From the NCBI RefSeq assembly GCF_028389875.1, contig NC_084670.1, positions 10,821,383 to 10,885,382 of the forward strand: a stretch of 64,000 nucleotides of DNA, in the 5' to 3' direction. Positions 4,254 through 63,484 of this stretch are shown here, piece after piece. Within the stretch, counting starts at the first letter, position 1; each line of letters begins with the position of its first letter. The DNA is from Rhea pennata (lineage: Eukaryota; Chordata; Aves; Rheiformes; Rheidae). The notes beneath the pieces were generated by a model, which searched no databases, was not told the DNA's origin, and worked only from the letters and a program-made list of their open reading frames with translations. A program made the position numbers and the translations under genes.

Positions 4254-4569
4254 ATGGCCTCCTCGGACGGGCTGCAGTACCGGGCCCTCTGCGACCACCA
4301 GAAGGACCAGGAGGAAGACCCGACGCTGAGCGCGGGGGACGTGCTGGCGGTCAGCAGGGCCGGGCTGCCGGGCGCCCCCGACTGCAAGGACGGGGACGAG
4401 CGGAGCCCCCAGGGCTGCCTCAGCGGCACCAAGGAGCGCGGCGACTTCCCCGGCACCTACGTGCAGCACCTGGGTCCCGCGCGCATCCCGGCCGCCGCCG
4501 CCAAGGCCAGGCCTCGGCCCGCGCCCCCGACGCCTGCCGGCACCCCCACGCCCGGCGGCCAGCCCTGGG
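4254..4569 (+). CDS. PIK3R3: PIK3R3 long form, coding exon 2: SH3-like domain
   Basis: This exon encodes 105 codons plus one base of a p85-type N terminus. The start ATG sits in a strong context (GCCTCCGCCATGG) and is the position expected from p85-alpha. The order of landmarks matches p85 SH3 domains: QYRAL at residues 8-12, an acidic patch at 20-22, GDVLAVSRAGL at 28-38, ERGDFPGTYV at 61-70 and HLGP after it. A proline-rich tail follows at about residues 84-104. The donor is G|GTGAGT, phase 1. In the family this domain binds proline-rich ligands and packs against other p85 regions. Here the ALYDY motif reads ALCDH (residues 11-15) and the conserved Trp is Cys55, so ligand binding may be weak or lost. 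The GERxPQ...GDFPGTYV...LGP stretch recalls p85-beta, but the downstream linkage is to PIK3R3. Confidence 0.85.
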
Positions 4570-6664
4570 GTGAGTGCCGGGGTGGGGGGCGCCCGGGGAG
4601 GGCGTCCCGGCGAGGGGGGGCGCGAGCCCGGGCTGCTCCCGCTGCGCAGCGCCGGCGAGGGGCGCAGGAGCCCCCGGGGCCCGCCCGCGGGACGGCACTG
4701 CGGGAGCCGCCGGCGAGGAATAGTTGCCCCGGGAATGACTTGCCCCAGTGCATCGTGGCGGCTGCAGAAGGGGGTGCCGGGGGCGTTGCTGCGCCCCCCC
4801 CATGAGCTGTCTGCGAGAATCGCCGCGTCCAGCGGCCCGGGCTCGCTGCTGTGCCCGGCGCAGGGCGGGCAAGGGGTCCTCGACCGTGGCCAGGAGCCTT
4901 TCCGATGGACTGCGGTTCTCCCGCACTGCGGTGCCCACGTCCGGCTGCTCTCGGCGCCCGGCCGCCCGGCAGGCTCGGTGCCCCGCTAAGGGCAGCTCTG
5001 TGCTGGGTGTTGGGCACACGCGGGGGCTTCTCCCGTGCGGGGGGGCTGGAGCGCAGTGCCGGCCAGGACGGCTCCGCTCGGCCTTGCCCGGCTCTGCCTT
5101 GGGTCGCGGCTCGCTCCGTCCTCGCTGCGTGCCATGGCCAAGCACCTCCGGGCTGGGAGGGATTTTGAAGCAATTGCATCATGTATCCAACCGCAACAAC
5201 AACAAAAAAAACCCTTGCAGCCAGGCAAATGAACAAAATGCGGCAGCCCCGGACACAAAACACGGCAGCCCCGGATGAAGCCTCAGTTCTCTGCTCTGCC
5301 AGGACACGGCCAAGGAGAAACCCCTCTCTGCAGAGCCTTGAGCAGGGAGAGCGCGGCATCCCTTAGCCTCGGGCGCCTGAGCTTGCTCGGGCACCCGCCT
5401 TGATAGATTTGGGACCAGGGTGCAGCTTTGCTAATGGGGGAGGCCGTTTTCCTCGGGGCTGGCGGAGGAGGTCCCCAGGTGGGACCTTGCTCCGGGCTCG
5501 CGTGGTCCCGTCTCGCCCCGAAGCACCGTTCGGGCGGCAGCGGGGAGCCTGCGTCCCTCTAGCCGCAGTATTTTGCACCGCAACGGGCTGAAGGGCTGGG
5601 ACGGCTGCTGGCCTTGCACACGGAGCCCGGCTCCGGTCCCATCCCAGCGGGATGTCCCAGCTCCGGGCCTGGAGAAAGGAGAGCAGGAGGCGCTGGCAGA
5701 GCCTGGGCGACGATAGCAGTGGGGAGCATCAGTCCCCCCCTCAAAAAGCTGCGGTTTAGCCCAAGCAGCCGGCTCACGTCATTGGGAACCGCACGCCAGG
5801 CCCCCCGGCTCATCCGAGATCAGAAAAAATATATATATTTTTATTATTATTGTTGTTATTAAGGAAAACCCAGTACAGCCAGCTTTCCGGGGGTAGATCG
5901 ACGGGGGATGCTGCCACCTGCCGGACGCGCGCTGGCCGTGTCCCTGCGTGCCTGTGCCACCAAGGAGAGGTTTAGTATTTGTCCTCCCGCAGTTCCCCAC
6001 CGGGCCGGCCCCCACCCCGCCGCTCTGGGGGGCCGCAGCGCCCGCGCGGGCTAAAACATCTCAAGTGTTTTGGAAGAGAAGGGCCTCTTTTTTTTTTCTT
6101 TTGATTTGGGGAAAATTCCTCCCTTAACGTTTCCCTCTCCAGGTGGAGGTTTTGAGGGACGTTTGCTTTGGCCGGCTCCAACGCTCGCTTTCCCGCGCTA
6201 GCTGCAGGCTTCCCCGCGGGCGCACCGGGCGCCGGAGCCGGTCCGGGCCCCACGCACGGGGCTTTCTCGCGTTGGGCGACAACGCGGGGTCGAGAGCAGC
6301 GTGCAAAACCCCGGGGTTTCGTGATGGAGCATCCCGAGCCGCCTTCCCCGGGCACAGCTTGTTGCGCGACAGCGCAGTCGCACCGGCTCGGTATTGAATT
6401 TCTTGGGATTATTTTAACGTGTTTCCAGCAAAGCCGAGCCGCTTGCCACGTCAATGGGACGAAGGAGCCCAGGCCGTTAGCAGAGAGAAACCTGAATTAA
6501 TGTCCGCGCGGCGTTCGCCCGCCTTCGCTCCCGTCTCCTTCTCGCGCGGAGCCGGGGCCGGACCGCCGGGCTGGAAAAGGGGGCCGGGGGGCGCAGTGGG
6601 GCTGGTGCGGGGCTGGGCACGAGCCCCACTCGCGCGCCCCGCTCCAGGCATCCTCTCTCCGCAG
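4570..6664 (+). other. PIK3R3: Intron 2 of the long form
   Basis: A 2,095-base GC-rich intron bounded by GTGAGT and a CTCTCTCCGCAG acceptor. It contains an AT/TTA-rich patch at 5824-5861, very like the one at 4085-4130. No gene or transposon is visible in it. Confidence 0.75.
5824..5861 (+). repeat. AT/TTA-rich microsatellite in intron 2
   Basis: A short A-run passes into (TA)n and then into TTATTATTATTGTTGTTATT. It shares the ATTATTATTGTT core with the tract at 4085-4130. Confidence 0.85.
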
Positions 6665-6763
6665 CAGGGCCCCCCGGGCAGGCGGAGCTCGCCGAGCGCC
6701 CCGACGTCCCCGAGCAGGCGCTGCCGACCGTGGCGAGGCTCGTCGAGGCGCTGGAGAAAAAAG
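6665..6763 (+). CDS. PIK3R3: PIK3R3 long form, coding exon 3: linker and first BH helix
   Basis: Ninety-nine bases, phase 1 at both ends, covering residues 106-139 of the joined protein. The peptide contains ELAERPDVPEQALPTVARLV followed by EALEKK. This matches p85-alpha's segment from the post-SH3 linker into the first BH helix ([20 protein letters not shown], then EAIEKK). The acceptor is a tandem CAGCAG (6662-6667), so splicing could begin at 6665 or 6668, adding or removing one residue (Ala106). The donor is AAAAAAG|GTACCG. In p85 proteins the BH domain has RhoGAP fold and contributes to binding of small GTPases and PTEN. Confidence 0.83.
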
Positions 6764-6923
6764 GTACCGGCGGTTTTCCGGGTGGGATCGGCGGGAGCGC
6801 GGGGACGAGGCGCCGCGGGCATCGCTGCAGCCGGGGAGGGGGCTGGGAGCCGCGCGCGGAGCGTCGCCGGGGTCCCGTTCCCGCGCGCCCGGCGCTGACG
6901 CCTCTCTCCCGGCCGCTCCGCAG

Positions 6924-7001
6924 GGATCGACGGCGAGGCCGCCTACGCGTCGCCGGCCGGCTCGCTGGGCGACGCCGAGCTGCAGCGGGCTCTCCTGACG
7001 G
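6924..7001 (+). CDS. PIK3R3: PIK3R3 long form, coding exon 4: BH domain
   Basis: Seventy-eight bases, phase 1 at both ends, separated from exon 3 by only 160 bases of intron. It encodes residues 139-165 of the joined protein: GIDGEAAYASPAGSLGDAELQ, then RALLT. The end corresponds to p85-alpha ...SSNLAELRQLLDCD. The segment around AYASPAG aligns with p85-alpha LYRTQSSS, so the arginine that sits where RhoGAPs carry their catalytic finger is Ala here. The acceptor is GCTCCGCAG and the donor is ACGG|GTGAGT. Confidence 0.82.
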
Positions 7002-8492
7002 GTGAGTCCCCGCAGGCGCCCGCGCCGCCCCCCCTCCCCGGGCGGGGAGACTCCGAGGCCGGGGGCACGTCGCGCTTTCGCCGGGTCTCGGCCGGAGGGG
7101 CGCCGGGCGGGGGGTCGCGCCGAAGCGCGGCAAAGGGGAGATGGCTCCTTGCGGGAGCGCCCGCGCGGTGCCGGGAGCGAAGGCCTGGGGGGAAACCTGC
7201 TTCACCTGAGCCGAGGGTGCCGAAACCTAGCAGGAGGCGGTGCCGGGGAGCAGGGGCACGTCCCGCCGCGCGGGAGAGCCCCCGGCCCGAGGCGGCTGTT
7301 TCCAAGCCGAAAGGTGCGGCGCAGCGCGGGGGCGGGAGTCACCCGGCGGCACGGAGACGGGGCTCGAGGAAGAGCCCCCAGCCCCGCGCGGGAGGGCTCC
7401 TCTCGGGAGCTCCCCTTGGGCCGCGGAGAAATTATTAGGGGCAGAAAAAGAAGGGAAAAGCATGAAAGTGCCTTCTTGTTTTATTTGCTCCACTGATGCC
7501 ATCTTCAGTCTGATTTCCTAAGGGGGGGGGGAAGAAAGCTCACGCTATTGCAGTGGTGCGTACAGGCAAACGCAGCCCGGGGTCTGTAGCCGTCGGGGGC
7601 AAGGAGAGACCCCTGCGCCTGCGCTCAGCCTGTATTAGACACCGGAGAATCCCCACAGGCCCCAGCCGCCGGCTCACGGGCTCCGGCGGCGCTTTGCCCT
7701 GGCCCGCGCGGGGACTGGGCCGAATCCGGCGCCGGAGGGAGGCGGGTCGGAGCCGCCAGTCTCCGGGCGTTGCCATCCCCCCGGCCGCGCCGTGCCGTGC
7801 CGTGCCGCGCCGCCGGCTCTGCCTAGCGACACGCTCACGTGCCCGGGAATTAGGTCAGGACTCGGCGCGGATTAGAGGCCCCGGTGGGCTCGGGGGCTGC
7901 TGCCGAGCTCCCCCCCATCCCCGCCCCGTCCCGTCCACGACCGCGGGGGGTGTTTCGGCGTTGGCCTGCTAGGGAGACGCGGGGCGGCGGCGGCGCAGTG
8001 GGGACCGTCGTCCGCCCGTGCCGGCTGCGGGGCCGCGGGCGCCCGGAGCGGCTCCCCCCGCCCGCCCGCCGGCCCCCTCGCCGCCGGCCCTCGGCCAAAC
8101 ATCCTCCGCGCTTACTGAAGCGCGGGGCGATTTGGGTGCGCGCCACCGGCGCCGGCTTACTCACGCCTCCCCCGGGTAGCTGCAGCTGCCGGCAGAGGTC
8201 CTGGCATTTCCTGCCCGGCCTGACTCAGCCCCGCGGCTCCCGGCCCCGCTCCGGCCTCCCGCTTTCTCCTCCGGGAAAGCTCCCGGCGCGGCCGGGAATG
8301 AGGGGCGGGGGGGCTCGGGAAGGGACGACCCGCCGGAGGCGCCCCGCGCGCCCGCGCGGCGCGCAGAGCTCGTGGGGCGGCGAGGGCTGACCCCGGCGGA
8401 GAGGCAGCGCCGGGGTTCCCGTCTGCACGAGGCGGCCGAGCTCCTTCCGCGGAGAAAGGCTGTGCCGGGGATTTCAGCGGGAGCAGGGCGCC

Positions 8493-8532
8493 CGTGCACA
8501 CGTGCGTGCACGCGCATGTGCATGCACATCTG
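8493..8532 (+). repeat. Alternating GT/GC/CA tract
   Basis: GTGCACACGTGCGTGCACGC and the following CATGTGCATGCACAT form about 38 bases of nearly unbroken purine-pyrimidine alternation with internal palindromes such as GTGCAC and TGCATGCA. This composition favours Z-DNA or cruciforms. Confidence 0.7.
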
Positions 8533-9023
8533 GCATTCCCCCTTCCCAACCCCATCTCCCTGCCTTTCCGTAGGAAATAGCTCTTCTTGGTTATTTTTGG
8601 TGTCTAAGGCCATCCGCTGGGCTCCCAGGCCCTGGAAGGGAGCACGGTCACGGGTGGCCAGTCAAAACGGTTGGGGACTTGAGCGCTTTTCTGGTGGAAA
8701 AAAAGCCACTTTCCTGGAAATTGAGTGCTCCCCATATGCCACTGGTTCTAGTAAAGCTGCTTTGGGGATAAAAACTGGGAGATAGGGGAAAGGAAGGAGC
8801 GAGCAGGTTCGGCCTGTGGCAAACTCCTCACCTCACTTATACCTCGTATCAGCCATGCGAGGCTTGAGCGGGCCCCCTCTAAGAAAGTGCAAAATTTGCT
8901 TTTTTGCCTCAAAATTCCCCGGTAGAAGAAGCAAGAAGTTCGGTTTCTACAAACGAACCATTTCAACCGGTCCCAAATATCTTGGGATTTTCTCCTTTTT
9001 CTTTCCCTGACATTTCTCCTGCG

Positions 9024-9087
9024 AGGAAAATTTCAAAACCTTTGAGTTGGGATCCAATTCGAATCAAAGGCAGATTTTGAAACCTCG
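9024..9087. repeat. Imperfect inverted repeat (foldback)
   Basis: The left arm TTTCAAAA..CCTTTGA (9031-9045) pairs with TCAAAGG..TTTTGAAA (9064-9082), with CGAGG/CCTCG extending the outside after a four-base bulge. The loop itself contains the near-palindrome TTGGGATCCAA. It may be a remnant of a small foldback element or chance structure in an AT-rich island. Confidence 0.55.
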
Positions 9088-9546
9088 AGATCTTTGGGAA
9101 AGGGAACGTCACCCTCCAGGCAGCCACGGCCCGGCCCGGCCACGGCTGAGAGACCTCCAAGAAAAACGCATGAGGCAACGCCTCGAAGGATGGCCGAAAG
9201 GGCTCTTCGTCCCCGCGCGGGCTCCGCCGCGGGGCTCGGACGGCCGCGTCCCACCCTTTGGCACGGTTGTTCTCCGACCGCTGACCCCGTCCCGAGCTCC
9301 ACCTCGGATGAGCTCAGCCTTTCCCACGTGGTTTCTCCCAGACGTGGTGTTGCATGTCCCAGGAGCTTCCTCACCACCTCCCCGGGCACAGCTGCGTTTC
9401 GGGGCTGGCAAAAGCATTGCCAGCCGGCGCCACGCTCGCAGTGTTTCGGGGTCATTGGGGATGTCTGTCTTTGGTGACGTGCATCACCTGGGTGCCATAA
9501 CCCCCCGTCAGCCCTGCAAAGCAGCCCAACAGGGACGACCTAAGGA

Positions 9547-9599
9547 GCATCGCTTGGTGTTGCATCGCTTGGCGTTGTGTCACTCGGTGCTGCATCGTC
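9547..9599 (+). repeat. 15-bp tandem repeat, about 3.5 copies
   Basis: The unit GCATCGCTTGGTGTT occurs at 9547, 9562 and, diverged, 9577, with a partial copy from 9592. It lies in intron 4 and is non-coding. Confidence 0.85.
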
Positions 9600-10099
9600 T
9601 TTTCCAATGGCCGGGTTTTAAGTCTAGGCAGGTTGGTGGGATTTTCCACTGGGATGAAGCATGAGCTTTGATCGATGTGTTTTTAAAAGCAGCCCCTCCT
9701 CAGGGGAGACTGGGGTCCAGCTCCTCGTCCCGAGGGGCAGGGAGAGGGCCTGGGGGGCAGCTCAGCTACCTCCCACCCTCCTCTGGATGGAAACACAGGC
9801 GAGCTCTGCAGCTGCACTGAAGCTAGGACAGAAGTATTTGCTGGGTGGTGTGTGCAGGTGAACTCATAGGCTGCCCCATGCAGGGAATTGGGGCTCAACT
9901 GTGGGAACGGGCACTAATTTCCTGGGAAAGGCCCACCAGGGGTCAAGGAATGGAAAAGCAAAGGTTTCTCCACAAAAGAGAGGGTAAAAAACAGGCAGGG
10001 AGCAAAATCAGGAGGAGGAGACAAGGCCAGGAGACTCCAGAGGGACAGCACTGTAGCAGTCTCCGTGGCCTGAGGACCGCCACGGGTCTCTCCTTGCAG

Positions 10100-10231
10100 A
10101 TGCCTCTGCCGTGGACATGGACCGGTACAATGCCCGGACGCTGGTGGAGGCCCTGATGTGGTACCTCCAGGAGCTCCCATCTCCCGTCATCCACCCGGCC
10201 GTCTACTCTGACCTGCTCTATCTGGCCCAAG
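10100..10231 (+). CDS. PIK3R3: PIK3R3 long form, coding exon 5: BH domain core
   Basis: One hundred and thirty-two bases, phase 1 at both ends, residues 165-209 of the joined protein. It is the best conserved part of the BH domain here: DASAVDMDRYNARTLVEALM, then WYLQELPSPVI and HPAVYSDLLYLAQ. This corresponds to p85-alpha [20 protein letters not shown] and VIPAAVYSEMISLAPE. The LPxPVI signature after the long helix is shared by RhoGAP folds. The acceptor TCTCTCCTTGCAG and the donor CAAG|GTGAGC are both strong. Confidence 0.9.
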
Positions 10232-13200
10232 GTGAGCGTCAGCGGGCTGGAAGGGGCTGGAGAGCATCACAGGGCTGGAAGAGCCTCAGGGAGCACTGCC
10301 GAGGGGGGCTCACGTGCGGTTCGTGGGGCCGGGGGAGCGTCGGCCCCCTCCCTGGAGCAGCATCAGGAGCAGCTCGGGGCGCCGGGAGCATGGGCTGCTC
10401 CGGCCCTTTCCACCTCCGCCCCATCCGGTGGTTATTTGCCTGCTCTCCTTGGAGCAGGGCTCAGTCCCATCGGGAAGCAGTTATCCCAGGTGCTGCCAGA
10501 AATCATTACAGCTAATAACGCGCCCTGGTTATACTTCGTGGCTGTGCGAATTACGTGGGAGGCTGAAGAAGCTCCCGGATGAGTCGCACAGCGGCGCCGG
10601 GATGTGGAGCGGAGGGAGCCGCTCCGCTCCCGCAGCGCTGATGCTGATCCTCTCCCACCGTCAGAGCCGTACCGGGACAACGGCGGTTTGCAGCCCGCGG
10701 CTCCCTCCTCCGGCGGTGCCGGGCTGCAAGCCGAGCCGGACGCCGCGGGGCTGAGCCCCGCTCTCGGAGGAGGCCGACCTCGCAGCGCTGGGTGTCCTCT
10801 CCTGCCCAGGCATCCCACCGTGGGGAGACTTCGGGATGTCGGAGCGTGGTGCTTGGATTGTACTTCGCCCCACTGGCCTCCTCCCAGTCTATCGGGGGTT
10901 CCTGAAGGAAAACCCCCAGGAAGGAACCACCTTGATGGGCTGGGTCGCACTGTGCACCCTCCAGATCCCGCTGTGCACCATCCAGATCCCGCTGCATGCC
11001 CCTCACGCCTCTCCTGTCCTCCACCAGGCGAGGTGCCGCTGCCGCAGACGGTGAGCAGCACCAGTGCATCTGGGCCTTGCCAGAAGAGCAGCCGGCTGCC
11101 AAGTCTCTGTGATACTGGCCCAGGAAGAAAGCGTTATTACAATATTTTGGCTCTGCTGCCTGGGAATTTTTTACTGTAATCTAGTCAAGATTTGGCTTTA
11201 TATGGACATAGAAGAATTCTCTGCTTTTTTAGCTCAGAATTCTGGAAGTGCCTGCAGGTTTCTGCAAGTTTTTCAGCCTCTATGCAAATATATGAGATTG
11301 TTACGGTTTCAGTTTTGTTTGATTTTTTTTCACTGAAGTGACAGGCTCAGGGCTGGTAACCAGGTCAGTAAAGGGAGACAGGAGTCCTTGGTCAGTCCAA
11401 CTGGGAGCTTGGAACAAAATGCTTTGTAAATGAGTTCTTGCAGAGAGAAACCACAGACAAAAACCCGGGCCAGGATTTCTGCAGGCTCCACCCCGTTCCC
11501 CCTCTGAGATGAGTCCCGTGGGCACTGCAAGGCAAGGACCAGGCCCTCACATACCTTGCAAGATAGCTGCCACGCTCGAGAATCTGCATCGCGCTCCTTC
11601 CACCCCGGCTGCCTTTGAAATCAGATTTTCCCCGTTTGCACTAGCTGGCTGTTGCTGGTATCCACCATCCCCTGGAGAAGCCTTCCTTCTCTGGTCAGGA
11701 GGAGGAGGTCTGCAGATGGTGATCCTGCCTTGCCTGGCAGGGACCAAAAGATCACCTGCGGCCGGAGCGGCGTGGAGAGCCGGCCCGGCCGGCCCTCCCG
11801 GGTCTGCCTGAGGCCGGAGGAATTTGCTGCTGGGGAAGGAGAGCGCTGGCTCGCAGCGCAGCCCGCAGCAGCGCAAACCTCCTCCCCCCCCCCCCCCCGG
11901 CGTTGTTTCCTTCCACTTGCTCTGCAAAACAGGCCTGGGTTTTCCCCTAGACCGCTTGCCCAGCGCCGGAGCGCGCCGACAGCCTTAACGCGTAGGTGAT
12001 CGCCGGGAGCTGGCAGCTGGCTCTGCCGAAACCCCGATTCACCTCTCCCGGCCGCTGCCGTGCAGCTGTCCCCAGCCCCTCACCACGGGCCGGCCCGGAC
12101 CCCCTTACGCGGCCCAGCAGCCTCCCTGCGTGGGTGCAGGCCACCGCGGTGCAGGCGGCCACGGCGGCGTGCGCACGGACACGTGGGACCCACACATCCT
12201 CGTAGGACAGGGCCCGCTGGCGGCCTCGGGACGGAGGAGGTGATGGATAGCTCACGCCGCAGCCACCGTGATTCGCTCCTTGCTCTCCCCTCGCCTCCCC
12301 GGTGCGGGAACGTGGGGCCGCGCAGAAGCCCCCTCGGCCAGCTCCTGCTGAAGCCCATGAGGGCCGGTGGCATGGAGACACTGTCTCTCCCCGTACCCGT
12401 TTGAGAGGAGAAATCAAAGGCTGCCTCTCTTCCAAGGATAAAAACTCAATTAGAAAGCAATTAGTCAGGTTGCCTCGTTAAGCTACTTCAAAGGGAAGCG
12501 CCTTTCCCCTGCAGCCTGAGTTCCTCGGATTCCTGCGCAGGAGCAATCTCTGCTCATTGCACAACACGAAGGAGGAGGATGGAGCCAGGAACCGAGGTGA
12601 AAACCACCGGGGATTTCTCTGGGGCTTAGGAAAAAAAAGAAAATGCAGCTCTTTGAGGAGACAGTTCTGGGTTTTGGCAGTTTGCCCTTGCAAGCAGCCT
12701 CCTTCTGCCAGGACTGAGGCTGGGTTGTTGGGGAGGACTGGAGGGGACCCACCACATGAGGCCCAGCTGCACGCCGGGTCATCATCTGTGACACCTTCCG
12801 AGCCCTTACCCGGATGGATGTGAGCCTGCTCCTGGCAGACAGCTGTGTAGCCCTGCGAGCACGGAGCTAGTAGCACATTGCTGTGGCAGCACAGCTACGG
12901 GGGTCCAGGCAGCTCTAGGTGGGACATCTGTGGTCCTCCTTCACTTGGATGGTGCCCTGGAAGGGATCCAGGCTTGTGGTGCACCAAAACCAACCTTCTG
13001 CACATCGCGCGGTCCTTCGGGCTGGGATTTCTCCTTAAGGCATCCCCAAGGCAGGGCCGGAAACCGCAGAGACCCAGATCTGTGGATGGAGGGCGGCAGG
13101 GGGAATTGGCCAGGGTGCAAATAGCCCCGGGGTCGGGTCCTGCTTGGAGCCATCCATGGCACCACCGGAGGCGGATGACTCGCTTGGCGGAGGCCCCAAC

Positions 13201-13704: not shown

Positions 13705-13891
13705 AGACCCCGGGGCCGGAGGAGTGCGGCCGGCGAGCGGGAGCCGTGCTGGCGGCGGCGCCGGGGCTGCTGCCGCCGCTGCTGCGGGAGCTCACGCGCC
13801 ACTTCTGCCGCCTGTGCCGGGGCGGCCGCCTCTCGGCCCGGCTCCTGGGAGAGCTCTTCGGCGAGGTGCTCTTCCGCCCCGCGCTCGCCAG
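13705..13891 (+). CDS. PIK3R3: PIK3R3 long form, coding exon 6: C-terminal BH helices
   Basis: One hundred and eighty-seven bases, acceptor phase 1 and donor phase 2 (GCCAG|GTATGC), residues 209-270 of the joined protein. Landmarks are PEECGRRAGAVL, then LLRELTRHFCRLC and LSARLLGELFGEVLFR. They parallel p85-alpha SSEEYIQLLKKL, LQYLLKHFFKLS and LNARVLSEIFSPMLFR. The exon is extremely GC-rich and Leu/Arg/Ala-rich, so without the motif order it would look like random GC frame. The last two bases (AG) join exon 7 to make Ser. Confidence 0.85.
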
Positions 13892-14185: not shown

Positions 14186-14259
14186 CGCTGAGGGCAGCCC
14201 CGAGCTCCGCGCGAAGCTGGTCGAGTCCCTCATCGTGGCCGAGGCGCCGGCGGCCCCCG
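14186..14259 (+). CDS. PIK3R3: PIK3R3 long form, coding exon 7: end of BH domain
   Basis: Seventy-four bases, phase 2 at the start and phase 1 at the end, residues 271-296. It encodes SAEGSPELRAKLVESLIV followed by AEAPAAP, corresponding to p85-alpha SDNTENLIKVIEILIS and the short linker before the proline-rich motif. The donor is CCCCG|GTAAGA. Its phase 1 end is the same as that of the p55-gamma first exon, so joining to 63,373 restores [11 protein letters not shown], the sequence seen at this junction in p85-alpha. This compatibility is the main argument that these exons belong to PIK3R3. Confidence 0.83.
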
Positions 14260-15956
14260 GTAAGAGGCGGCGGCGGGGGGCGGCGGGGGGCGGCGGCGGC
14301 ACTGCGGGATCCGCGCTGGGGCAGGCAAAGCGGGCGCGCTCCCCCCCGGCTCGCCCGCGCTGCCCCCCGCTAGGGCAGACCTCGGGGCGGTTCTTCGGAA
14401 AGCGCGTTTTCCGGGCGCGTTTGGGAAAAAGCGGGTATTTTGCAGCTGTTTTGCTCAGTGCTCGCGGCGCGGCGCCGGCGGGTGCCGTCCTGCTGGCGGG
14501 CTGAGCCCCTGGCCGTGCCGGTCAGGGCGCCTGCTGCGTGGCTGCTTTGGGTCTCCGGGTGCCTTGGTACGGTTTAAAAGAAGTGGGGGAAAAGCGGGAA
14601 AGAAAGGAGGAGCTGCGACAGCACAGCGGCGAGGCACCTGCAACCTCTGCAACCGGGGCACGGCCTCCGGCACGGCGTGGGCTCCCCGTCTCCGCTGCGG
14701 CCCGGGCGGCGATGGGGCCGGGGCGCCCGGCGGGCAGCTCTTCGCGCCTGGGCCAGGTGCCGGGAGCACGTGGTTTTTTTCTGCTGATATTAATGAACCC
14801 ACAACGTCTCCCAGGCTTCCACCCCAAGGACTGTAATTACGTCCTCTTTTTTTACTCTCAAAACAGGGGTTTGCCCGCCAGCGTCCGTTCTTTCCCAGCG
14901 TTGACTTTGCTGGTTTAAGGTCCAGCCCTCCGCTGACCTCCTTGTCCTGCTCCATCCCCCGCGCTTGGTTGCACCGCTCATGTCCCCCCGTTGAGGCACA
15001 CGCTTCGGTTTGGGGCTATTTGGTGTTTGTGCAGCACCGGCGCTCCGGGGCCTGGCACTCTGCGTAAGTCGGGGACTCGGGGCCGGGAGCAGCGAGTGCT
15101 GGCCCGTGGCTAAGTCCCCGTCACGTCAAGACGTGAGCGTGGGGGCTTCATGGAGGAGAAAAACCAAACTGAAAGAAAACCAAAACAAGCAAAACCAAAC
15201 TCCAAGGAGGGGCCCTTGCCATGGGATGCTCCCGAGGATGGGGCGCAGGCAGTGTGTTTAGGCAGGGCAGGGATGTGCCGGGGGGAAAAGTGGTTGGTTG
15301 GGCACCAACCGCAGACCTTGAGGACCACGGTGACCAACTCTTGTCCGAGCTGAGGGCTTGCAATGGCTTCTCGTGACCACTGTGGGATCTCACCTCCCCC
15401 TGCCAAAGCCCAGCTGTCCCCTCTTCCCCCTGCTCCGAGCCCTCTGGACCCACGAGGGGGTCAGCTGCTCCCAGCCTTCCCCGCTTGGAGATATTTCAGT
15501 GTCGGCCCTGGTGGATCTTGTCTCCGCGTATTCTCTCCTTGTAATATATCTGGGTCCCTGTCATCGCCCTGCAGCGCTGTGGGGTGGCCGGCCCAGGCAG
15601 GATTACAACTCTTAATATTCCTCGTAAATCAGCCCTTTCGGACCTGTCATCTTGTTCCTTGCTCTCCCTTGAGCTCTCGCCCACGAGTTTGTCGACTTGG
15701 ATACGTCTCCTCTGCTGCTGATCCAGATGTTGTACAGCTGGAGCCCCAGCTTGCCCCGGGGTCTGCTGCAGCATCCCGGCTGCTGTCCCCGCTCCCATGG
15801 GGGCGCTCGTCGCCCCCGCCCCAACTCGAGCGTTTGGGAGGTGGGTTGGGACTCCCGGGTGCTCGTCCTGACCGCGAGCCCCACCGAAACGTGGCCCGAG
15901 GGCCGGGAAGCGGAGCCGGGACGCCCGGGCTCTCCCCCCGCCGGCCGAGCGGCGCG

Positions 15957-26097: not shown

Positions 26098-26098
<1 letters not shown>

Positions 26099-26135
<37 letters not shown>

Positions 26136-36650: not shown

Positions 36651-36699
36651 TCTTCCCCTCCTACTGTTTTAACTCATAGAAACACTCTTAAAAGGCGGT

Positions 36700-45976: not shown

Positions 45977-46093
45977 CAGCGTGTGGGGCAAAGACCCCAC
46001 TCAGCGTGGGGCCATACCCCATTCAGTGTGGGGCTACAGCCCGGCCGGCGTGTGGGGCGCACAGCCGGCCGGCGCGAGGGGCGCACCGCCATG
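45977..46093 (+). repeat. Degenerate 22-25-bp tandem repeat upstream of the CCAAT cluster
   Basis: About five units share CAGCGTGTGGGGC, followed by a variable CATACCCC/ACAGCCGG half. They begin near 45977, 46002, 46024, 46046 and 46070. The array ends about 115 bases before the first CCAAT box. Confidence 0.75.
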
Positions 46094-46209
46094 CCGGCCG
46101 CCACCACGGCCCCGAGGTGCCCGCGCGCCCGCTCCCCTCTTTGTCCCCCCTCCTTTCTCCCCCTCAACTCTCCCCTTTCTTTGTCCCGCTTAGTAACTGG
46201 GGCTCCCAG

Positions 46210-46279
46210 CCAATCGCCATCGAGCCGGCCGGCTTCGCCGCTAGCTGATTGGACGGGCCGCCGGCAGCCCTCAACCAAT
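46210..46279. promoter_or_regulatory. PIK3R3: Three CCAAT boxes (NF-Y type)
   Basis: CCAATCG at 46210, GATTGGACG (inverted) at 46247 and ACCAATCCA at 46274 are spaced about 38 and 27 bases apart. Multiple CCAAT boxes with close to three helical turns between them are typical of NF-Y-driven, TATA-poor promoters. Confidence 0.6.
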
Positions 46280-46708
46280 CCACGCGCTCGCTGCTCTCTC
46301 AGACAAAGACGGCAGCTCTGGCAACTGGGCTAAACTCCCCCCGCCCCCCACGCGTGCTCCACGGCAGCAGCCCCTTGGCGACGGGCCAGCCGCGGGACCT
46401 ACCACTTCGCCTTTTTCTCCTCGCAAGGGGGAGCCTTAGGAAAAGGGGGCGAGAGAGGCGGCTGAAGTGTAGAAAGAGAGCAGGTGAATAGTCAGAAGGG
46501 TGCGAAACGAGCAGTTTCAGTGTGAGGAACTTTCTTTTTCCGCACGCTTCGCCGAGTGAGAGAGGATGTGTCCCCTTCTGCTCGTTGCGCGCACCCCCTC
46601 TTCTGCCTCGTGGAAGCGACCACTCGCACAGCGCCCCCCCGCCCTCCTCGAACGGGTTAAAAAGGCGGCGTGAAGCCCCGCCCCCTGGGGCCCCTCCCGC
46701 GGCGTGCC

Positions 46709-46726
46709 GGGGGGGGGGGGGGGGGG
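46709..46726 (+). repeat. Poly-G run, 18 bases
   Basis: Uninterrupted G run immediately downstream of the GC box. It can form a G-quadruplex and its length is uncertain. Confidence 0.9.
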
Positions 46727-46790
46727 AGGTGTGGCTTCGTCCTCGGCAAGAGGCGGTTGGCGACGGTTGGGCCCCTCAGAGCCTCTTAAA

Positions 46791-46931
46791 ATGAAACCTA
46801 GCGGGGCCGGGAGCGGCGCAGAGAGCGAGGGGCTGCGACCTGCCGGAGCCGCCCGGAGCCGCCGGCCACGCCGCGCGGGGCTGCGAGCTGGGCACGGCGG
46901 GCGCCGCCGCGGTCTGCCGGCCCAGCGCTGA
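46791..46931 (+). CDS. Candidate upstream ORF in the p55-gamma leader, 46 codons
   Basis: A true ATG in fair context (TTAAAATGA) opens a 46-codon Arg/Gly/Ala-rich frame that stops with TGA at 46929-46931, more than 500 bases before the PIK3R3 start. If transcription begins upstream of 46.79 kb and this part is retained in the mRNA, it could damp translation. The peptide has no recognised family. It may equally be a chance frame in a CpG island. Confidence 0.25.
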   Translation: MKPSGAGSGAESEGLRPAGAARSRRPRRAGLRAGHGGRRRGLPAQR

Positions 46932-47400
46932 GCCGCGCCGCGGAGCCGGCGGGCGCCGCGGGCTGAACGGCGCTGCCCGCCCCGCTCGCGCTCCTCGCCT
47001 GCCGTTATTGTTGCTTGCCTACCCCCGCCTTCCTCCTCAGCCTGCGGAAAGAAGTCTAGCCGCGGACTGAAATCGCTCCTTTTTTTACCCGCGCTTCAGC
47101 ACACGCACCCTCCCGCCTTTGTGCGGGCGGGGGGAGGTGTTTTGTTTTAAACCAGGTGTTATAAAAATACCCCAAAAACGGCGGTTTTTTAGAAAGTAGC
47201 TTTTCTGTGGAAAGCCACTTTTTGTTTTTAATCAAAAAAAAAAAAAAAAAAACTACATACGTAATCTACCTAGAGTTCCTGCAGGACAGCTGCTGAGGTG
47301 TCTCGTGTGTATATGCTCTTCTTTTTTTAAGTTTAATTTTGAGGGGTTTTTTTATTCTTTTTTTTTGACAGAAATGTCATATTAGAGCGGGGTGGGTTAT

Positions 47401-47456
47401 TCTCGTTTTCCTTTTTTTTCTTCTTTTTTTTTTTTTTTCGTTAAACACAAAGCCAG
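47401..47456 (+). promoter_or_regulatory. PIK3R3: Possible 3' splice site before the p55-gamma coding exon
   Basis: A 39-base, almost pure pyrimidine tract (47401-47439) is followed by AAG (47450-47452) and CAG (47454-47456), about 40 bases before the start codon. This looks like an acceptor, which would make the p55-gamma start exon internal, with a separate non-coding first exon in the CpG island. If it is unused, the leader is continuous. Confidence 0.35.
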
Positions 47457-47494
47457 TCTCTTATTTATAAATCTGCCGGGACTTGCCTGTCGCG

Positions 47495-47600
47495 ATGTAC
47501 AACACGGTGTGGGATATGGACCGCGATGACACAGACTGGAGGGAAGTGATGATGCCATATTCCACTGAGCTGATATTTTATATTGAAATGGACCCTCCAG
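47495..47600 (+). CDS. PIK3R3: PIK3R3 p55-gamma first coding exon
   Basis: The exon encodes 35 codons plus one base: [20 protein letters not shown] followed by [15 protein letters not shown]. This is the unique N terminus of p55-gamma and, from memory, differs from human at only two positions (Asp7 and Thr13). An in-frame TAA at 47468-47470, nine codons upstream, fixes the start and means the exon cannot be read through from upstream exons. The donor is CCAG|GTACGG, phase 1; it joins 63,373 to complete Ala36 and the ALPPKPPKP motif. p55-gamma binds and stabilises the p110 catalytic subunit and recruits it through its SH2 domains to phosphotyrosine YxxM motifs at the membrane. It lacks SH3 and BH. 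Confidence 0.97.
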
Positions 47601-56600: not shown

Positions 56601-59600
56601 TTAACCTGTGCAGTAGCTGTGAGTGTTCATGAAGAACAAAGAGTGTACCAGAAGCCTGACAGTCTGTAGGAGATGAAACTGTGGTTGTGAGGTGTGAGAG
56701 GATTGGATGGCTAGGGGAGTTTTCAAACAAAACTGATCTTTATCAAAAAAAAATCAAATCTGAAATATTTCTTAAAGGCATTGTTTTTTGTGAAAGTTCA
56801 CAGAAACACAGAAAAAGTTATAATGGAAGTGTTTTCATTGGAAACTTGCCTGGATTTTTGCCCACTTGTTTGCTGTTTTCTGTAATGAGATATTGAAAGG
56901 CTTCAATTCTTAGAATATTTTTTGGCCTTTGGTGTCTCACCTGATCTGGTGGAGGAGGGCAAAAGTGTGAGCATATATAAGGTTCCATGGCCAGCAGTAA
57001 TGTGATTGAGTAGCTTCCCCATCTATCATTTCTTGAGGAGTTTTCAGGGCTTGTTAGCTGCCCTTTGGGGAAGAGAAGCTTAGAAGGACATTGATGCTCA
57101 GTATTTGAGAAGGGGGTCTTGGCAAGAGAACTGACAAGTTGAGATGTGCAGCTGCCAAGATAACTTACCTGTCAGTAGTAGTGAATGAGTTGCTGTCAGC
57201 TGATGTGCACGATCCTCTCTGTCAGCTGGAAAATCTCAGCAAAGGTATAGTGCCTTATTACTCCCACTTGCATACACAGTTCACAAATTCACTGAATGAA
57301 GAAGTGCAAAAAGCACCTTTTTCAGCACATGCTTTTTTCTCCCTCAAGTTGTCTTGAGGGGATCTAGTGTAGCAGTGACAAATACAGGACTATTGAGGGA
57401 CAAAAAGATTTTGAGTCTTGACATTAAAAGTTTTTGAGGAAATTGAGTAGAACTACAAGAAACAGTTGAATGTTGGGAGATTTTTTTTTTTTTCTCAAAA
57501 AAGAAAAACTAGCTTGCACTTTTGTTCCAGGTCTTTATCCATATCTACAATGGGAAGATATTTCTGTCCTTTAGGATTGTGTCATTAAAATATTAGCTTG
57601 CCTAACCTTGGAGTACTTGCATGTTTCCCTAGCAATGACACTTTTCAAAGCCTTATATTACAGTTTGTAGGGTACAGTATGCCAGCTTTTTTAAACTGGA
57701 TAACTATTTTAGGAGTCCTCTGATCTGTTATCCGCTTGTCACAAAATATGTAGGCAGGGTAGATTGGGATCTTCAGCAGGAAGCAAGTTAGTAAACAAGG
57801 AAGTGCTGAGTGGCTTAAAATTGACTACTCAGTAGCTGTGATTATTTGTAACAATACAGATAGATAATACTGCATTTAAGTCTCCTATGCTTTTAAGTAT
57901 CTAGCCTGCATCCCTTGGAAAATGCTGGAAGAAATGAGTAAAGTAATGGAGACATTCCTAGACTAAGTGGCATTTGCTTGAAAACTTCAAATTAAAGTTT
58001 AATTAATTGGCAGACTTGTGCATAAATACTGCAGCCAGAGGAGGAGTGGATTGCTTGACTGGATGCTACTTGGGATGTAGCACTTGGAGACCCAAGGCAT
58101 TCTGCTTTTTTACTCCCCCTGAATTAGTGCTATTGAAAACTCTCACACTTTGGGCTCCCTGACTCTTAAATCATGAAACTTTTAAAATTTTTGATTAAAA
58201 GCCTAGCTCAGAAAACTGGATATCTCTTATAAGTCACAATGTACTTTACAGAAGTTAAATCTTGTATTAGTACAGCCCATTGTCTTCTACAAGAGACCTT
58301 AATTAAAAAAAAAAATACAGCAGTACTAAGCTTCAGATACTTGCCAGTTTTATGCGTTTTCTCAGTGTTAGAGGTGGTTTGAATTTCAGGGAATTACATC
58401 CGTTAAATCTGGAGTAGCTTTAAAAAAAAAAAGAAAAAACAATTCTGTGCAGTCAGTATCTCGGCAAAACCTAATCAATAGGCTTTTTTCTCTAAGGAAC
58501 TGCGTTTCACTTCTGCAGAGCAGCTCAGCTAAAGCTACCTGCTGGAGACTGCACAGCAGCGTCCTGGGCCCTGACGTCAGCAACATACGATCGCGGGGCC
58601 CAGCTGGCATTGGCTGCCTCTGTTGTCTCCGTTCGCTCATCAGCTCCTTTTTATTTTCTTCCTTCTAAATGACATAGCACTGGGATTGGGATTTAGCTCA
58701 AGCTAGGCTGCTTGGGGAAGCTAGAAAGAGGGGACTTAGAGTGCTAAAGAAAGAAAAAACTAAGATGCCTGCTAGTCTCTTCTCATTGCTGCATGCCAGG
58801 CAGTCGCTAAGCTGGTCTTGGGAATGCAAGGATGGAAGCATCCTGTTCAGCTGTTGCCTTTTGGTTTGTGTGGTAAAGCTATCCTAGACAGTGGTAGGGA
58901 CTTTTGTATCTCATTCTAACAGTAGGTTTTTTTTTTTTTTTTTTAAGTTTGTAATCACTAAAGATCAGTGTTGCTTCTCTCTCAAGAAAAGGGAAGAAGG
59001 AGGAAGAAAGAAAACCATCAAGATTTTCACTCTAATCAGAGCTTGTTTTTTAGACGAATTGAGATTATGCCTGTGGCTAGATCAGAATTGGACCCAGTGA
59101 TAAGGAAGGAGGAATACTGCTGTTCTTGAAAGCATTTCTATTGACTCCCAAGCTAGTTTTATTTCACTTTACTGTAGGATTTTAGCTTTCTAACATTAAG
59201 TACAGTATATAAAACTGGATTTTCTTAGATTTAAATCAAAATCTGTAGACTCTGTAGGGCTGTTTGTAGCTTCTAACAGAAACATCACAGGATTTCTTCT
59301 AGCAGGGCAGTTAGTACTGTGTAGATATCACTAAAAACTATTTTAGTTTTATCACTTACATCTATTCCAGCTCATTGTGCCAGCACTCTGAAAGCAGCAG
59401 CGTGGTGTTTGCTGCTCTGTTACAGTAGACTTGTCCCACTGTTGCAAAATGCTCTTCTCATGTCATTACAGGTTGTGGGTTGCAGAGTCTAAGCTACTTC
59501 TTCTCCAGTCATAGACAGCAGTCATATCAAGCTGATAATATAGTCAAGAAACACGAAAATGGTTGGGCATGTTAGTTTTGTGGGCAAAGCAATAGCAAAG

Positions 59601-59633
59601 GCCTGTTTCTGTAGACAGTACTTAAGTGAATAA
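47601..59633 (+). other. PIK3R3: AT-rich intron after the p55-gamma exon, part 1
   Basis: The intron is 15,772 bases in all (47,601-63,372). This part is AT-rich with many poly-T and poly-A runs, a G14 run at 47865-47878, a C run at 52095-52105 and a perfect short hairpin at 53075-53093. I see no exon, RNA gene or well-preserved transposon. Confidence 0.7.
53075..53093. repeat. Perfect hairpin with 8-bp arms
   Basis: TTCCCCCC and GGGGGGAA flank a TTT loop. It is not followed by any gene end, so it is not a terminator in this eukaryotic context; probably chance. Confidence 0.8.
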
Positions 59634-60350
59634 TCATAGAATCACAGAATCAGTAAGGTTGGAAGGGACCTCTGGAGATCATCTAGTCCAACCTCCCTGC
59701 TCAGCAGGGTCATCTACAGCATGTTAGACAGGGTTGCACCCAGGTGGGCCTTGAGTATCTCCAGAGAAGGAGACTCCACAGCCTCTCTGGGCAACCTGTT
59801 CCAGTGCTCTGTCGCTCTCACAGTGAAGAAATTCCCCCTCACGTTCAGGCGGAACTTCCTGTGGTTCAGTTTCTGCCCGTTGCCTCTTGGCCTGTCACAC
59901 GGGACAACTGAAAAGAGTTTGTCCCCCTGACATCATCCCTTCAGATACTTATAGACATTGATGAGATCCCCCCTCAGTCTTCTCTTCCCCAGGCTGAACA
60001 GGCCCAGCTCTCGCAGCCGTTCCTCATGGGGCAGATGCTCCAGCCCTCTGATCATCTTTGTAGTCCTATGCTGGACTCTCCAGTAGCTCCATGTCTCTCT
60101 TGTACTGGGAGCCGAGAACTGGACACAGTACTTGAGATGAGGCCTCCCCAGGGCTGAGTAGAGGGGCAGGATCACCTCCCTTGACCTGCTGGCAACACTC
60201 TGCCCAGTGCACCCAGGATACCATTGGCCGCCTAGGCCACAAGGGCACATTGCTGGCTCATGGTCAATTTGTCATCCACCAGCACTCCCAGGTCCTTCTC
60301 TGCATAGCTGCTCTCCAGAAGGTCAGCCCCCAGCCTGTACTGGTGCCGAG
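59634..60350 (-). mobile_element. CR1 LINE, 5'-truncated 3' fragment
   Basis: The plus strand begins AATCATAGAATCACAGAATC, the complement of the 8-base (ATTCTATG-like) 3' tail of avian CR1. Read on the minus strand from about 60350 down, the sequence encodes the end of the CR1 reverse-transcriptase ORF, with blocks such as [36 protein letters not shown] and [20 protein letters not shown]. The 3' UTR follows. The frame is broken: part of the stretch ([11 protein letters not shown]) is found in another frame, so the copy is dead. It lies inside the p55-gamma intron in antisense to PIK3R3. CR1 is the main LINE of birds and supports the avian assignment. Confidence 0.95.
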
Positions 60351-63300
60351 GGTTTAATCCCATTACTATTCAAAGAACTTGAAGCACTGAAAGTAAAGAA
60401 CGTGATCCATAGCGCTCTGAAAACAGAGGATCCACCCTTTTTCAAATCTGCAAGCTATTAAAGCATTTTTTTTAAAGCCTATTGTGGAAAGGACTCCATG
60501 AGTCAGGTTTTACAGGAACTGGTCCAAGTCTTCTAATTTTCTCACGCGGAGTAAAGTTGTGCAGACAAACCTATGATAGAAAGAACTGATACCTACCTTT
60601 TTTAGTAAAGAAGGTAAAAACAACCTGTAGTGAAGATGGTTGGTGTAATACTTAGTTCTCTGTGCCCTTTTACTAAACTCTTCTTCCCTGCAGTTCTGGT
60701 CTTTGTTAGTTTGCTTTTCTGTGCCCACTGCTTTGGAGTGAGCCCTAACAAAGCTGCAAAATAATTCCATAGTATACAAAGGAGCAAGACTTAAGCGTAC
60801 AAAGAGGGCTAGAGAAGTATTCAAGTACTCTAGAGAATACTTGAAAGCCTCTTCTAGAAAGCCCCTAATACCTTGCTCTATTACCAGTGTAAAAGAGGCT
60901 CTTATACTGTAAAAACCTTGAATTTTTTGGTATATCTAAGCCTTAATTTGTTTGTTTGTTTTTTTGTTTTTTTTTTTTTTTAAAAAGTGAAGTCATTGCT
61001 GCTGCCAGTATATTCTTAAAATTAAAAAAAACTCCATGCTGCTGTGTTTTCTACATGAAGCTTCATGTTCTTGTTGATTCAGAATTTGCAAAAGATTCTG
61101 GAGTAGTTTGAAAACATTTAGTCACTGTTTTTTTCTGAATTCAGATTTATTGCTGTGTGTGGACCAATCACACTCAGAACTTTGTTGCTGATATCTTGTT
61201 CCTTGCTTCGAATATGAAGAGTAACCAGGTACAAATGTGAAGTGGGAGAAAGAGAGGCCTGAGAACACTTGCTAATTCTGGAACTTTGCATACAGGAGGT
61301 GGAACAAAATAAGGGACAGGAAATAAAAATCATTCCACAGTCTTTGTCTGGATATATGCTCTTCTCACCCTGCAAAGGCAGAATAAGACCCGTAGAGCTT
61401 CAAGCAAAATGGGGTTACAAATGTGTCTTATTCTCAGTAGTACATCTAGGAGTACTTAGGTGTTATTCAAACAACTGTAGTGGTTGAGCTAGGACTGAAT
61501 GCAGCCTCCTAACCAGGAAGCTACTTTACTGAATCCAAAGGTTTGCACCTTCCTTTTATGAGACCTGTTATTGCCTTGGTAGATATGTGCACACCTGAAA
61601 GCTCCTGGCTCACCTCACAAAAAGAACCTGTATGTGACAGTTTAATGCTTAGTGCCACCGAATGAATGCTGCTATCTGAATCAGGTGTTTGGTCAGCAAC
61701 CCCAGGGTGCAAATGTCTGGGTCAAGGTTCAGGTTTAGTTTAGATTGGCTCGATTAAAGCATCGGCTGGTTTGTCTGAGAACAGTAAAGTTACTGTGTGT
61801 TAGATAGTCAACATGAAATGGTATTTGAAACTGCAGTTGGAGCACAGTATTTTCTCTTCTTTAATGTGGGAGGTGTGGCTCAGAGGTGAGCAGATGAATA
61901 GTGCCAAGTAGCACACCTCTCAGCTCTAAGCCACTCTGCACTGGAGCAAGAGATCAAAATCTTCTTTCTTTGTATTTGTATTTCTGCGTGTACACCAGGA
62001 CTGCGTGCATCTGAGAGATGGTGATTGTCAGTGTGTGTCAGGTCTCCTCTCTGATGCTTGTGTAATCTGATGACTGGGACGTAGGACTGGGAGAGCAGAT
62101 GTTCAGGGTCTAACTTAAAAACATGCTAGCAAATCATTGTATATTGCTGCTTTATCTTTCTCTGAACTCAAATGATAGCTGTCCCTCTAAAGCACTCTGT
62201 GGTTGCCTCATGAAACGCCAGGAAAATGCCCAGTTTCTGTGGTAGTGTTTCTGATGAGCCCTGAGCTCCACTGCAAAGCAGGGAAGAGCACTCGAGACAT
62301 CTTTCTTGAAGAAAATAGTAATGCATTTGTGCTGACAGACAAGTCTCTACTAATATATTAGTATACCTATGGCTGCTGAATTATTCTTGGAATAGGACTT
62401 ACATTCAGGATCATGCTAAAGTTTTGTTTGAGTTGTTTTGAAAAACTGGCTGGATAGCAAGAGGTTTAGTGGGTTGTATGTCCTTACATTGTGTAGTCTA
62501 TCTTGAGAACAGAAGTAAACCATGTTTGCATTGAATTCAGAACAGGGGGATTCTAGGCAGATATGCCCTTCCAAAGAAACAGAATTTGAAGCCAAGATAA
62601 ATCTTAATACACGTGTACAGTTTTGGCAGCTGTCTGTGGGGGATTGTAGCTTCCCCTTTCCTTTAGTAAAAGTTACTGAGCTGTGTGGTTTAAAGAGGTG
62701 TTGATAACTTAGAGCTAGATGCCCTAATAGTAAGCTAATGTCCCTTTTCCTCTTACTGTATTGCCTCGTGTCCTGTATGAATTACCTATACAAAGAGTTG
62801 TAGTTTCTGTCCCTAAGCCCCAAAAAACAAATCCAGTGTTGAACGTGAGCCATGGGGTCCGTAATGGATGTGCAGCTGCCTAGCCACCACTTTTCTCACC
62901 AGCAAGGTTGTTTTTCCCTCTGAAGGAGGGCACACCTGTGTGCTCTTATGGGATTCTGAAAGGACTTGCAATTCCTTAGCAACCATAGCTTTTCCATAGC
63001 TATGCGCAACACTCTTCAGGCTGTGGCATTCAAGCGTGGTAATTTGTTTGGAGGTGTAGCAGTGATAGCCCATGTGGTCATGCCTGAGCCAGTCTTCCTT
63101 TTAACAAAAGCTCCCATTTCCTCTTATTCCTTACTCTTCTCCTTCCTCAGGTCTGTGTTTTGTTTGAGTACTGGGAAACGTAGGATCACAGTGCAGCTGT
63201 TGACATCAAAGTACTTTAAAAATCACGGATTCTGTTTGTTTTGAGAAAGGATAAAATCCAAGTTCATGCTTTTTTGCTTTTTCTCTTGTTTTTTTTTCAC

Positions 63301-63372
63301 TATCATGTTTCTGTAACATTTCAGTGATATTTTCCGCTACTTACCTTTCTTTTTTCTGCTCTTCATTTTCAG
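60351..63372 (+). other. PIK3R3: AT-rich intron after the p55-gamma exon, part 2
   Basis: AT-rich intron ending in a T-rich tract and CATTTTCAG acceptor. A hairpin with tRNA-like features lies at 61875-61934. Nothing else recognisable. Confidence 0.7.
61875..61934 (+). repeat. Hairpin with tRNA-like 5' arm
   Basis: GTGGCTCAGAGGTGAG (61875-61890) pairs with CTCAGCTCTAAGCCAC (61919-61934) with two mismatches. Inside, GTGC and GCAC can form a second small stem. The left arm resembles a tRNA D-arm/A-box (TGGCTCAGAGG). It may be the head of a decayed tRNA-derived SINE or simply a chance inverted repeat. The stem is short for a microRNA precursor. Confidence 0.4.
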
Positions 63373-63484
63373 CTCTTCCTCCAAAGCCCCCCAAACCAAT
63401 GACTCCAGTTAATACAAATGGGATAAAGGACAATTCCAGTTTCTCTCTGCAGGAAGCGGAGTGGTACTGGGGGGACATCTCAAG
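63373..63484 (+). CDS. PIK3R3: PIK3R3 shared exon: proline-rich motif and start of nSH2
   Basis: One hundred and twelve bases, acceptor phase 1 and donor phase 2 (TCAAG|GTAAAC). With the preceding G it reads [20 protein letters not shown], then [26 protein letters not shown] is the SH3-binding proline motif found between BH and nSH2 in p85 proteins, and WYWGDIS opens the N-terminal SH2 domain that binds pYxxM peptides. The exon serves both p55-gamma and, by phase, the long form. The remaining SH2, inter-SH2 coiled coil and C-terminal SH2 exons lie beyond the window. Confidence 0.97.

Follow-up and report, generated by a model that had tools for sequence, protein, structure and literature searches.

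A probable p85-type long form of PIK3R3 in Rhea pennata, with loss of the SH3 pocket residues

Introduction

Class IA regulatory subunits of phosphoinositide 3-kinase (PI3K) bind p110 through their iSH2 region and inhibit it until their SH2 domains contact phosphotyrosine; the usual description of the system comprises two p85 genes and the short p55-gamma. PIK3R1 encodes p85-alpha and, by means of internal promoters, p55-alpha and p50-alpha, and the product of PIK3R2, p85-beta, shows the layout SH3-BH-SH2-iSH2-SH2. Here we analyze a stretch of 64,000 nucleotides from Rhea pennata (NC_084670.1, positions 10,821,383 to 10,885,382 of the forward strand; the window hereafter), which most likely constitutes the 5' half of a two-promoter PIK3R3 gene, built like PIK3R1 and giving rise to both a p85-gamma and a p55-gamma.

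According to one review, PIK3R3 codes for p55-gamma and mammals are described with this form only; the same review describes p85-alpha dimers formed at the N terminus through SH3-proline and BH-BH contacts, and a binding of PTEN that requires both SH3 and BH (PMC7458397). A domain survey published in 2015 presents the p55-gamma homologues as lacking a rho-gap domain and uses the term "p85 gamma" once, for cartilaginous fish (PMC4617754), and a table in another paper lists p85-gamma as a name of Pik3r3 (PMC10062291). Among the open-licence papers retrieved, no title or abstract opening describes a long PIK3R3 form.

Results

Six exons upstream of the p55-gamma exon join the common PIK3R3 exon in frame

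The original prediction for this locus proposed six exons with GT-AG borders, an unbroken frame and phases 1,1,1,1,2,1, and an independent recalculation from the window sequence arrived at the same exon limits, splice borders and phases. The exons measure 316, 99, 78, 132, 187 and 74 bases; all six have a GT donor, exons 2 to 6 have an AG acceptor, the cumulative end phases are 1,1,1,1,2,1, and the chain contains intact splice sites, no stop and no frameshift. Like the common exon, the p55-gamma exon, the read-through frame and the two CpG-rich regions described below, they lie on the forward strand. Exon 1 (4254..4569) opens with an ATG in the context GCCATGG and encodes the SH3 region, assigned by structure matches to p85-alpha and p85-beta, and the start of a proline-rich linker. 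Exon 2 (6665..6763) carries linker and the BH start, and exons 3 (6924..7001), 4 (10100..10231) and 5 (13705..13891) encode BH/RhoGAP-like sequence; these four were assigned by their borders and their match to p85-alpha. Exon 6 (14186..14259) encodes the BH end and a second linker, and its donor (GTAAGA) is in frame with position 63373, where the common PIK3R3 exon begins (63373..63484; ALPPKPPKP... to the nSH2 start, GT donor at 63485). The predicted phase 1 junction between the two was thus in frame at the sequence level, and exons 1 to 6 plus the common exon give a stop-free frame of 332 codons.

Exon 6 and the common exon are separated by an intron that contains the p55-gamma-specific coding exon (47495..47600; 106 bases, ...EMDPP), which also ends in phase 1 and whose residues recur at the start of the Falco PIK3R3 protein P0048. 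The order in the window is therefore collinear: SH3/BH exons, p55-gamma exon and the common exon, the last of which would be used by both forms. The exon 2 acceptor is a tandem CAGCAG (6661-6668) offering an alternative exon start at 6668; in the alignment, the extra residue that results from the upstream choice is present in the goose protein P0107 and absent in ostrich. A stretch matching rhea exon 4 was also found in the emu protein P0028.

The N-terminal half is homologous to that of p85-alpha

The joined rhea protein matched p85-alpha of the PDB over residues 3-332 (E 1.6e-58), in agreement with the anticipated N-terminal part of about 332 codons, close to p85-alpha. Its first 78 residues matched the SH3 structures of p85-beta (7.5e-14) and p85-alpha (6.4e-14), and residues 113-309 matched the BH structures of p85-alpha at about 1e-28. 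These E-values rule out a chance reading frame in GC-rich DNA. The Pfam RhoGAP model identified the BH domain with 30.6 bits against a cut-off of 24.5, the lowest score among the proteins scanned (tinamou 39.4, ostrich 48.3, turtle 83.1). The predicted SH3-like and BH content consequently held as homology, through the structure matches and a RhoGAP score above the cut-off, but "SH3-like" was a generous term for the rhea protein, which the Pfam SH3_1 model did not match.

Mapped on the bird p85-alpha P0018, the rhea exons end at residues 110, 142, 167, 211, 278 and 305; those of human PIK3R1 end at 111, 142, 167, 211, 278 and 305, with phases 1,1,1,1,2,1. PIK3R1 and the rhea locus would share the domain order, exon-end positions and phases of the N-terminal half, as well as, presumably, an internal short-form exon that follows the BH exons and precedes the common SH2 exons. 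They differ in that PIK3R1 is a separate gene and clade, and p85-alpha retains the SH3 pocket residues that the rhea protein lacks; PIK3R2, despite its similar layout, likewise forms a separate clade. Mammalian p55-gamma is the product of the same gene, and its short form is also represented here (47495-47600 plus the common exon), but it is devoid of SH3 and BH.

The long N terminus belongs to PIK3R3

The similarity of the rhea sequence to both p85-alpha and p85-beta is what a PIK3R1 or PIK3R2 fragment or paralogue upstream of PIK3R3 would also show. This candidate, to which we give practically no chance, was refuted by the phylogeny. In a tree of 28 N-terminal halves, in which three beta rows were half filled or less and one beta row was long, the window sequence fell within the gamma clade with support of 100/99, apart from alpha and beta; the alignment with PIK3R1, PIK3R2 and PIK3R3 of other vertebrates suggested by the original prediction thus placed the rhea exons in PIK3R3. 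Rhea was nearest to ostrich and tinamou (98/98), and the gamma clade broadly reproduced the species tree, with the coelacanth outside the ray-finned fish at moderate support (82/82). Furthermore, 135 of the 140 long proteins retrieved (P0067-P0206) bear the gamma-type nSH2 signature (three are alpha and two beta), so that in the orthologues this N terminus continues into SH2 domains of the gamma type, and the long N terminus belongs to PIK3R3 itself. A PIK3R2-type "beta-like" protein (P0043) exists separately in the palaeognath Tinamus guttatus, which argues against a displaced PIK3R2 in the window.

Long branches were also seen for the gamma N termini of the tinamou Nothoprocta (P0169, 0.25), whose amino-acid composition deviates, and of Gavialis (P0097, 0.35), indicating that fast evolution of the N-terminal half is not exclusive to rhea.

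Long PIK3R3 models are found from sharks to birds

A protein search with the full-length probe yielded 220 matches, each a cluster representative that may hide other species, and the best 120 were considered. Counted from their names, 118 of these 120 were long PIK3R3-like proteins with the layout SH3-BH-SH2-iSH2-SH2 (the other two were N-terminal only); 92 of them come from birds, 8 from cartilaginous fish, 8 from ray-finned fish, 5 from squamates, 2 from turtles, and one each from a gharial, the coelacanth and a caecilian. Among the matches listed, the long models measure 700-795 amino acids, mostly 720-740, with two shorter ones, and many are already entitled "regulatory subunit gamma isoform X1" or similar. 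This distribution ruled out p85-gamma as a peculiarity of birds, since fish, squamates, turtles and a caecilian have long models, and from these sequences we regard the long form as a widely annotated ancestral form rather than a bird or rhea novelty. The ancestral architecture of the original prediction accordingly stood, but not the idea that only this lineage retained it while others lost or concealed it, given at least 118 long models from sharks to birds. Similarly, the proposal that high GC explains why these exons are missed is plausible for rhea (G or C occupies 93% of third codon positions in the six exons, and the gene model P0002, described below, is broken), but it is not general, as the exons are annotated in many birds. 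The database models also contradict the 2015 survey (PMC4617754).

The exon 6-common exon junction predicted for rhea could be examined in the 57 Met-starting models of the 135 gamma proteins, the remaining 78 being not Met-starting and many of them having odd replacements of exon 6. The junction was present in 56 of the 57 (54 recognized by pattern and two, P0100 and P0137, by eye), with P0161 as the sole exception. The long models of turtles, lizards, ostrich, neognaths, sharks and other fish are orthologous to the rhea chain, share its junction and have a similar length. Together, the end-to-end match to p85-alpha, the gamma-clade placement and these junction models made the predicted p85-gamma the natural reading of the six exons. 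In addition, three indels that we read from the alignment as specific to rhea (of 4, 2 net and 4 codons) all preserve the frame.

No mammalian or frog protein was found among the best 120 of the 220 full-length-probe matches; for mammals this carries little weight, since the second search, of 120 matches, contains no mammalian p85-alpha either. A search with a shorter query, with candidates restricted to 0.55-1.75 times the query length (a reach of about 182-581 amino acids), yielded alpha and beta proteins of mammals but not one N-terminal gamma piece from this group. The nine mammalian PIK3R3 proteins that it returned (P0055-P0059 and P0061-P0064) all begin with the p55-gamma exon. Mammals appear to be the group without the long form.

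The rhea gene model, and a possible SH3-BH product ending in intron 6

Several observations weigh against a p85-gamma being made in rhea. The Rhea pennata record P0002, a 260-residue "alpha-like" model, agrees with the window at each of the first 84 residues of exon 1 and throughout exons 2, 3 and 4, which marks the window as rhea DNA, and it ends in intron 4. It includes, however, translated pieces of introns 1 and 4 (window 5897-5971 and 11027-11180), and to judge from its sequence P0002 looks like an erroneous prediction of a misannotated gene. The splicing of 14259 to 63373 in rhea is itself predicted from sequence. The lgn source tag, which we took to denote read assemblies, was on none of the 118 listed long models, but it was on the p55-gamma cluster P0048, and two lgn proteins spanning exons 1-6 continue into intron 6. 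No long form of rhea, emu, kiwi or cassowary was named among the 120 matches of the second full-length search; this is a weak objection, because the list holds representatives at 90% identity, the ostrich cluster P0072 has five members, and the rhea protein would be about 90.5% identical to P0072. Finally, the degenerate SH3 of rhea, described below, equally fits a decay of the long form.

The lgn observations bear on a different interpretation, namely that the six exons form a separate unit ending in intron 6 and encoding an SH3-BH-only protein, their joining to PIK3R3 being rare or absent in birds. Fifteen database proteins (P0001-P0015), from sauropsids where a source is given, model all or some of the N-terminal half, ten of them under the names "alpha-like" or "subunit alpha". 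In two assembled contigs, those of P0004 (1719 bases) and P0009 (5301 bases, 18 member sequences), exons 1-6 are spliced and the exon 6 donor is then read through (..APGK), an ending shared by P0006, P0007 and P0010. In rhea, the read-through frame (14260..14504) is open up to a stop at 14502-14504, and its use would give a hypothetical SH3-BH-only protein of 376 residues. Nevertheless, the end phase of exon 6 suits the common exon, and 56 of the 57 Met-starting long models, from sharks to birds, use that junction. The tails of the N-terminal-only models also vary by species, with ..APGK in only 5 of 15, as prediction noise would have it, and P0004 and P0009 may represent transcripts that retain the intron or a form with early polyadenylation. 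The stand-alone reading had been suggested by the length-restricted search; when the query was lengthened by adding the C-terminal half, full-length proteins appeared, so this reading was downgraded, though not dropped. We thus consider a separate unit quite improbable; an SH3-BH product, if real, would more likely be an extra than a replacement, and we regard this second product as a lead rather than a result.

The rhea SH3 has lost its pocket residues

A feature that escaped the original prediction is the loss of the SH3 pocket in rhea. The ALYDY tyrosines and a tryptophan of SH3 domains line the ligand pocket. We compared these sites in 161 proteins, including N-terminal-only models and single-exon open reading frames and leaving out two without an SH3 match. 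Residue 13 of rhea, the first ALYDY tyrosine, is C (Y or F in 157 of 158 gamma SH3 sequences); residue 15, the second, is H (Y in 158/158); and residue 55, the pocket tryptophan, is C (W in 158 of 159, with R in the garbled turtle model P0121). A four-residue deletion in rhea includes the NER motif, of which N is found in 158, E in 158 and R in 159 of 159 gamma sequences. Rhea thus lacks the residues of a functional p85-type SH3, unlike the other long PIK3R3 models, which keep the ALYDY tyrosines (or F), the tryptophan and NER, bar single garbled models.

Pfam SH3_1 matched neither rhea exon 1 nor the 332-residue rhea protein, and it matched all six orthologues scanned (ostrich, tinamou, gull, goose, turtle and gharial; E 2e-5 to 1e-3), three of them above the curated cut-off. 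A weak SH3_2 match was obtained for rhea exon 1 (E 0.042) and tinamou (0.045). Since the pocket residues are lost, binding to PxxP ligands is expected to fail; on these residues, the rhea long form should keep the BH functions and should not bind PxxP ligands. Our literature searches, none of which was aimed at SH3 loss by name, retrieved no description of it in rhea.

Possible relaxed selection or biased substitution in the SH3 exon

One explanation for the SH3 change is an ongoing decay of the long form in rheas, with selection on the 5' half relaxed toward the p55-gamma-only state described for mammals and the SH3 exon going first. In favor of it, rhea alone among 159 gamma SH3 sequences is changed at the ALYDY tyrosines, the pocket tryptophan and NER, and SH3 changes unique to rhea exceed those unique to ostrich with four outgroups (17:1 with turtle, 13:1 gharial, 13:2 lizard and 14:0 coelacanth). 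On a fixed topology the rhea branch was 0.298 for SH3, against 0.051 expected from scaling by the remaining branches, an excess of 5.8-fold (Poisson P for at least 17 changes 5e-7, by an approximate test), and the SH3/BH branch ratio was 2.93, compared with 0.25-1.23 in ten other species. Raw change counts do not set rhea apart from tinamou: the rhea- versus ostrich-unique changes with the turtle outgroup were 9:2 in BH exons 2-4 and 6:4 in exons 5-6, and those of tinamou versus ostrich were 14:1 in SH3, 13:2 in exons 2-4 and 7:4 in exons 5-6. The tinamou protein P0169, nonetheless, retains the pocket residues.

The conserved columns pointed in the same direction. In a set of 41 hand-picked sequences, mostly from neognath birds, rhea was changed at 13 of 49 SH3 columns that are at least 90% conserved (ostrich 0/48, tinamou 2/48) and at 12 of 73 such BH columns (ostrich 6/72, tinamou 8/73; median 2), ranking first for SH3 and seventh, tied, for BH. 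Among 160 rows it ranked third for SH3, with changes at 10 of the columns conserved to 95% or more, below P0121 (19) and P0101 (13), whose garbled stretches look like model errors. The BH half of rhea is not wholly untouched, as the 12 changed columns indicate, and such a mild effect on BH is also in line with decay.

However, other observations argue against decay. Rhea-unique BH changes numbered 15 against 20 in tinamou (turtle outgroup), the rhea BH branch of 0.102 compares with 0.310 for tinamou and 0.074 for ostrich, and stops and frameshifts are absent and splice sites intact. General decay should not leave five of the six exons spared, unless it is recent. Decay of the long form is a tentative and rather unlikely explanation.

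A further possibility, which we hold as a candidate although a doubtful one, is that GC-biased gene conversion or mutation drove harmful changes into the SH3 exon while selection on the gene remained unchanged. With ancestral codons inferred from amino acids, 11 of the 17 rhea SH3 changes went from A/T to G/C, 2 from G/C to A/T, 3 were neither and 1 was undecided, which makes biased conversion a serious part of the story; the corresponding BH changes were 7 from A/T to G/C, 3 in reverse, 3 neither and 2 multi-step. The GC content at third positions of the six exons and the long branches of tinamou and gharial are also consistent with it. Yet neither the change from Trp to Cys nor the four-codon deletion is of the biased kind, and the BH exons, whose GC content is similar to that of exon 1, are less accelerated.

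Putative promoters and other features of the window

A CpG-rich region upstream of the six exons (2500..4253) presumably comprises the promoter and 5' untranslated region (UTR) of the long form, with a GC content of 0.83 and a CpG observed/expected ratio of 1.06 at 2500-3500, and of 0.71 and 0.92, respectively, at 3500-4600. It holds a GC-rich minisatellite (2870-3492; repeat units of 29, 48 and 193 bases that match at 73-76%) that perhaps lies within a 5' UTR intron. A second CpG-rich region (46000..47494; GC 0.61 and CpG observed/expected 0.97 over 46000-47500) precedes the p55-gamma ATG, and for this reason we propose it as the internal promoter and 5' UTR of p55-gamma. The sequence at about 60000-60350 resembles a bird CR1 element. 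An Rfam scan of the window gave no matches.

Discussion

Our results suggest that the rhea PIK3R3 locus would operate in a manner similar to PIK3R1. Transcription from the upstream CpG-rich region would generate a long transcript in which exons 1-6 are spliced to 63373, and its product, p85-gamma, would have about 723 residues comprising SH3, proline-rich linker, BH and SH2-iSH2-SH2. The internal CpG-rich region at 46-47.5 kb would generate the short transcript encoding p55-gamma. Both forms would bind p110 via iSH2 and inhibit it until their SH2 domains meet phosphotyrosine. The N-terminal half of long PIK3R3 would act as that of p85-alpha does, in dimerization and partner binding, and in rhea the SH3-proline contact would fail.

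A broader scenario, in our opinion unlikely, is that the ancestral p85-gamma was lost in mammals, became a BH-only adaptor with a dead SH3 in rheas, and was supplemented in birds by an SH3-BH read-through product, one gene thus giving three kinds of regulatory proteins (p85-gamma, p55-gamma and SH3-BH).

Long PIK3R3 models already stand in public databases for many jawed vertebrates. What the present analysis indicates is that the published domain survey is incomplete and the rhea gene model wrong. If the proposed p85-gamma is real, PI3K would have a third p85 across jawed vertebrates, with mammals as the exception, and work on fish, chick and lizard that treats PIK3R3 as p55-gamma only would overlook a subunit bearing SH3 and BH domains. 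The loss of the long form in mammals and that of the SH3 pocket in rhea would then represent two natural experiments on the purpose of the N-terminal half.

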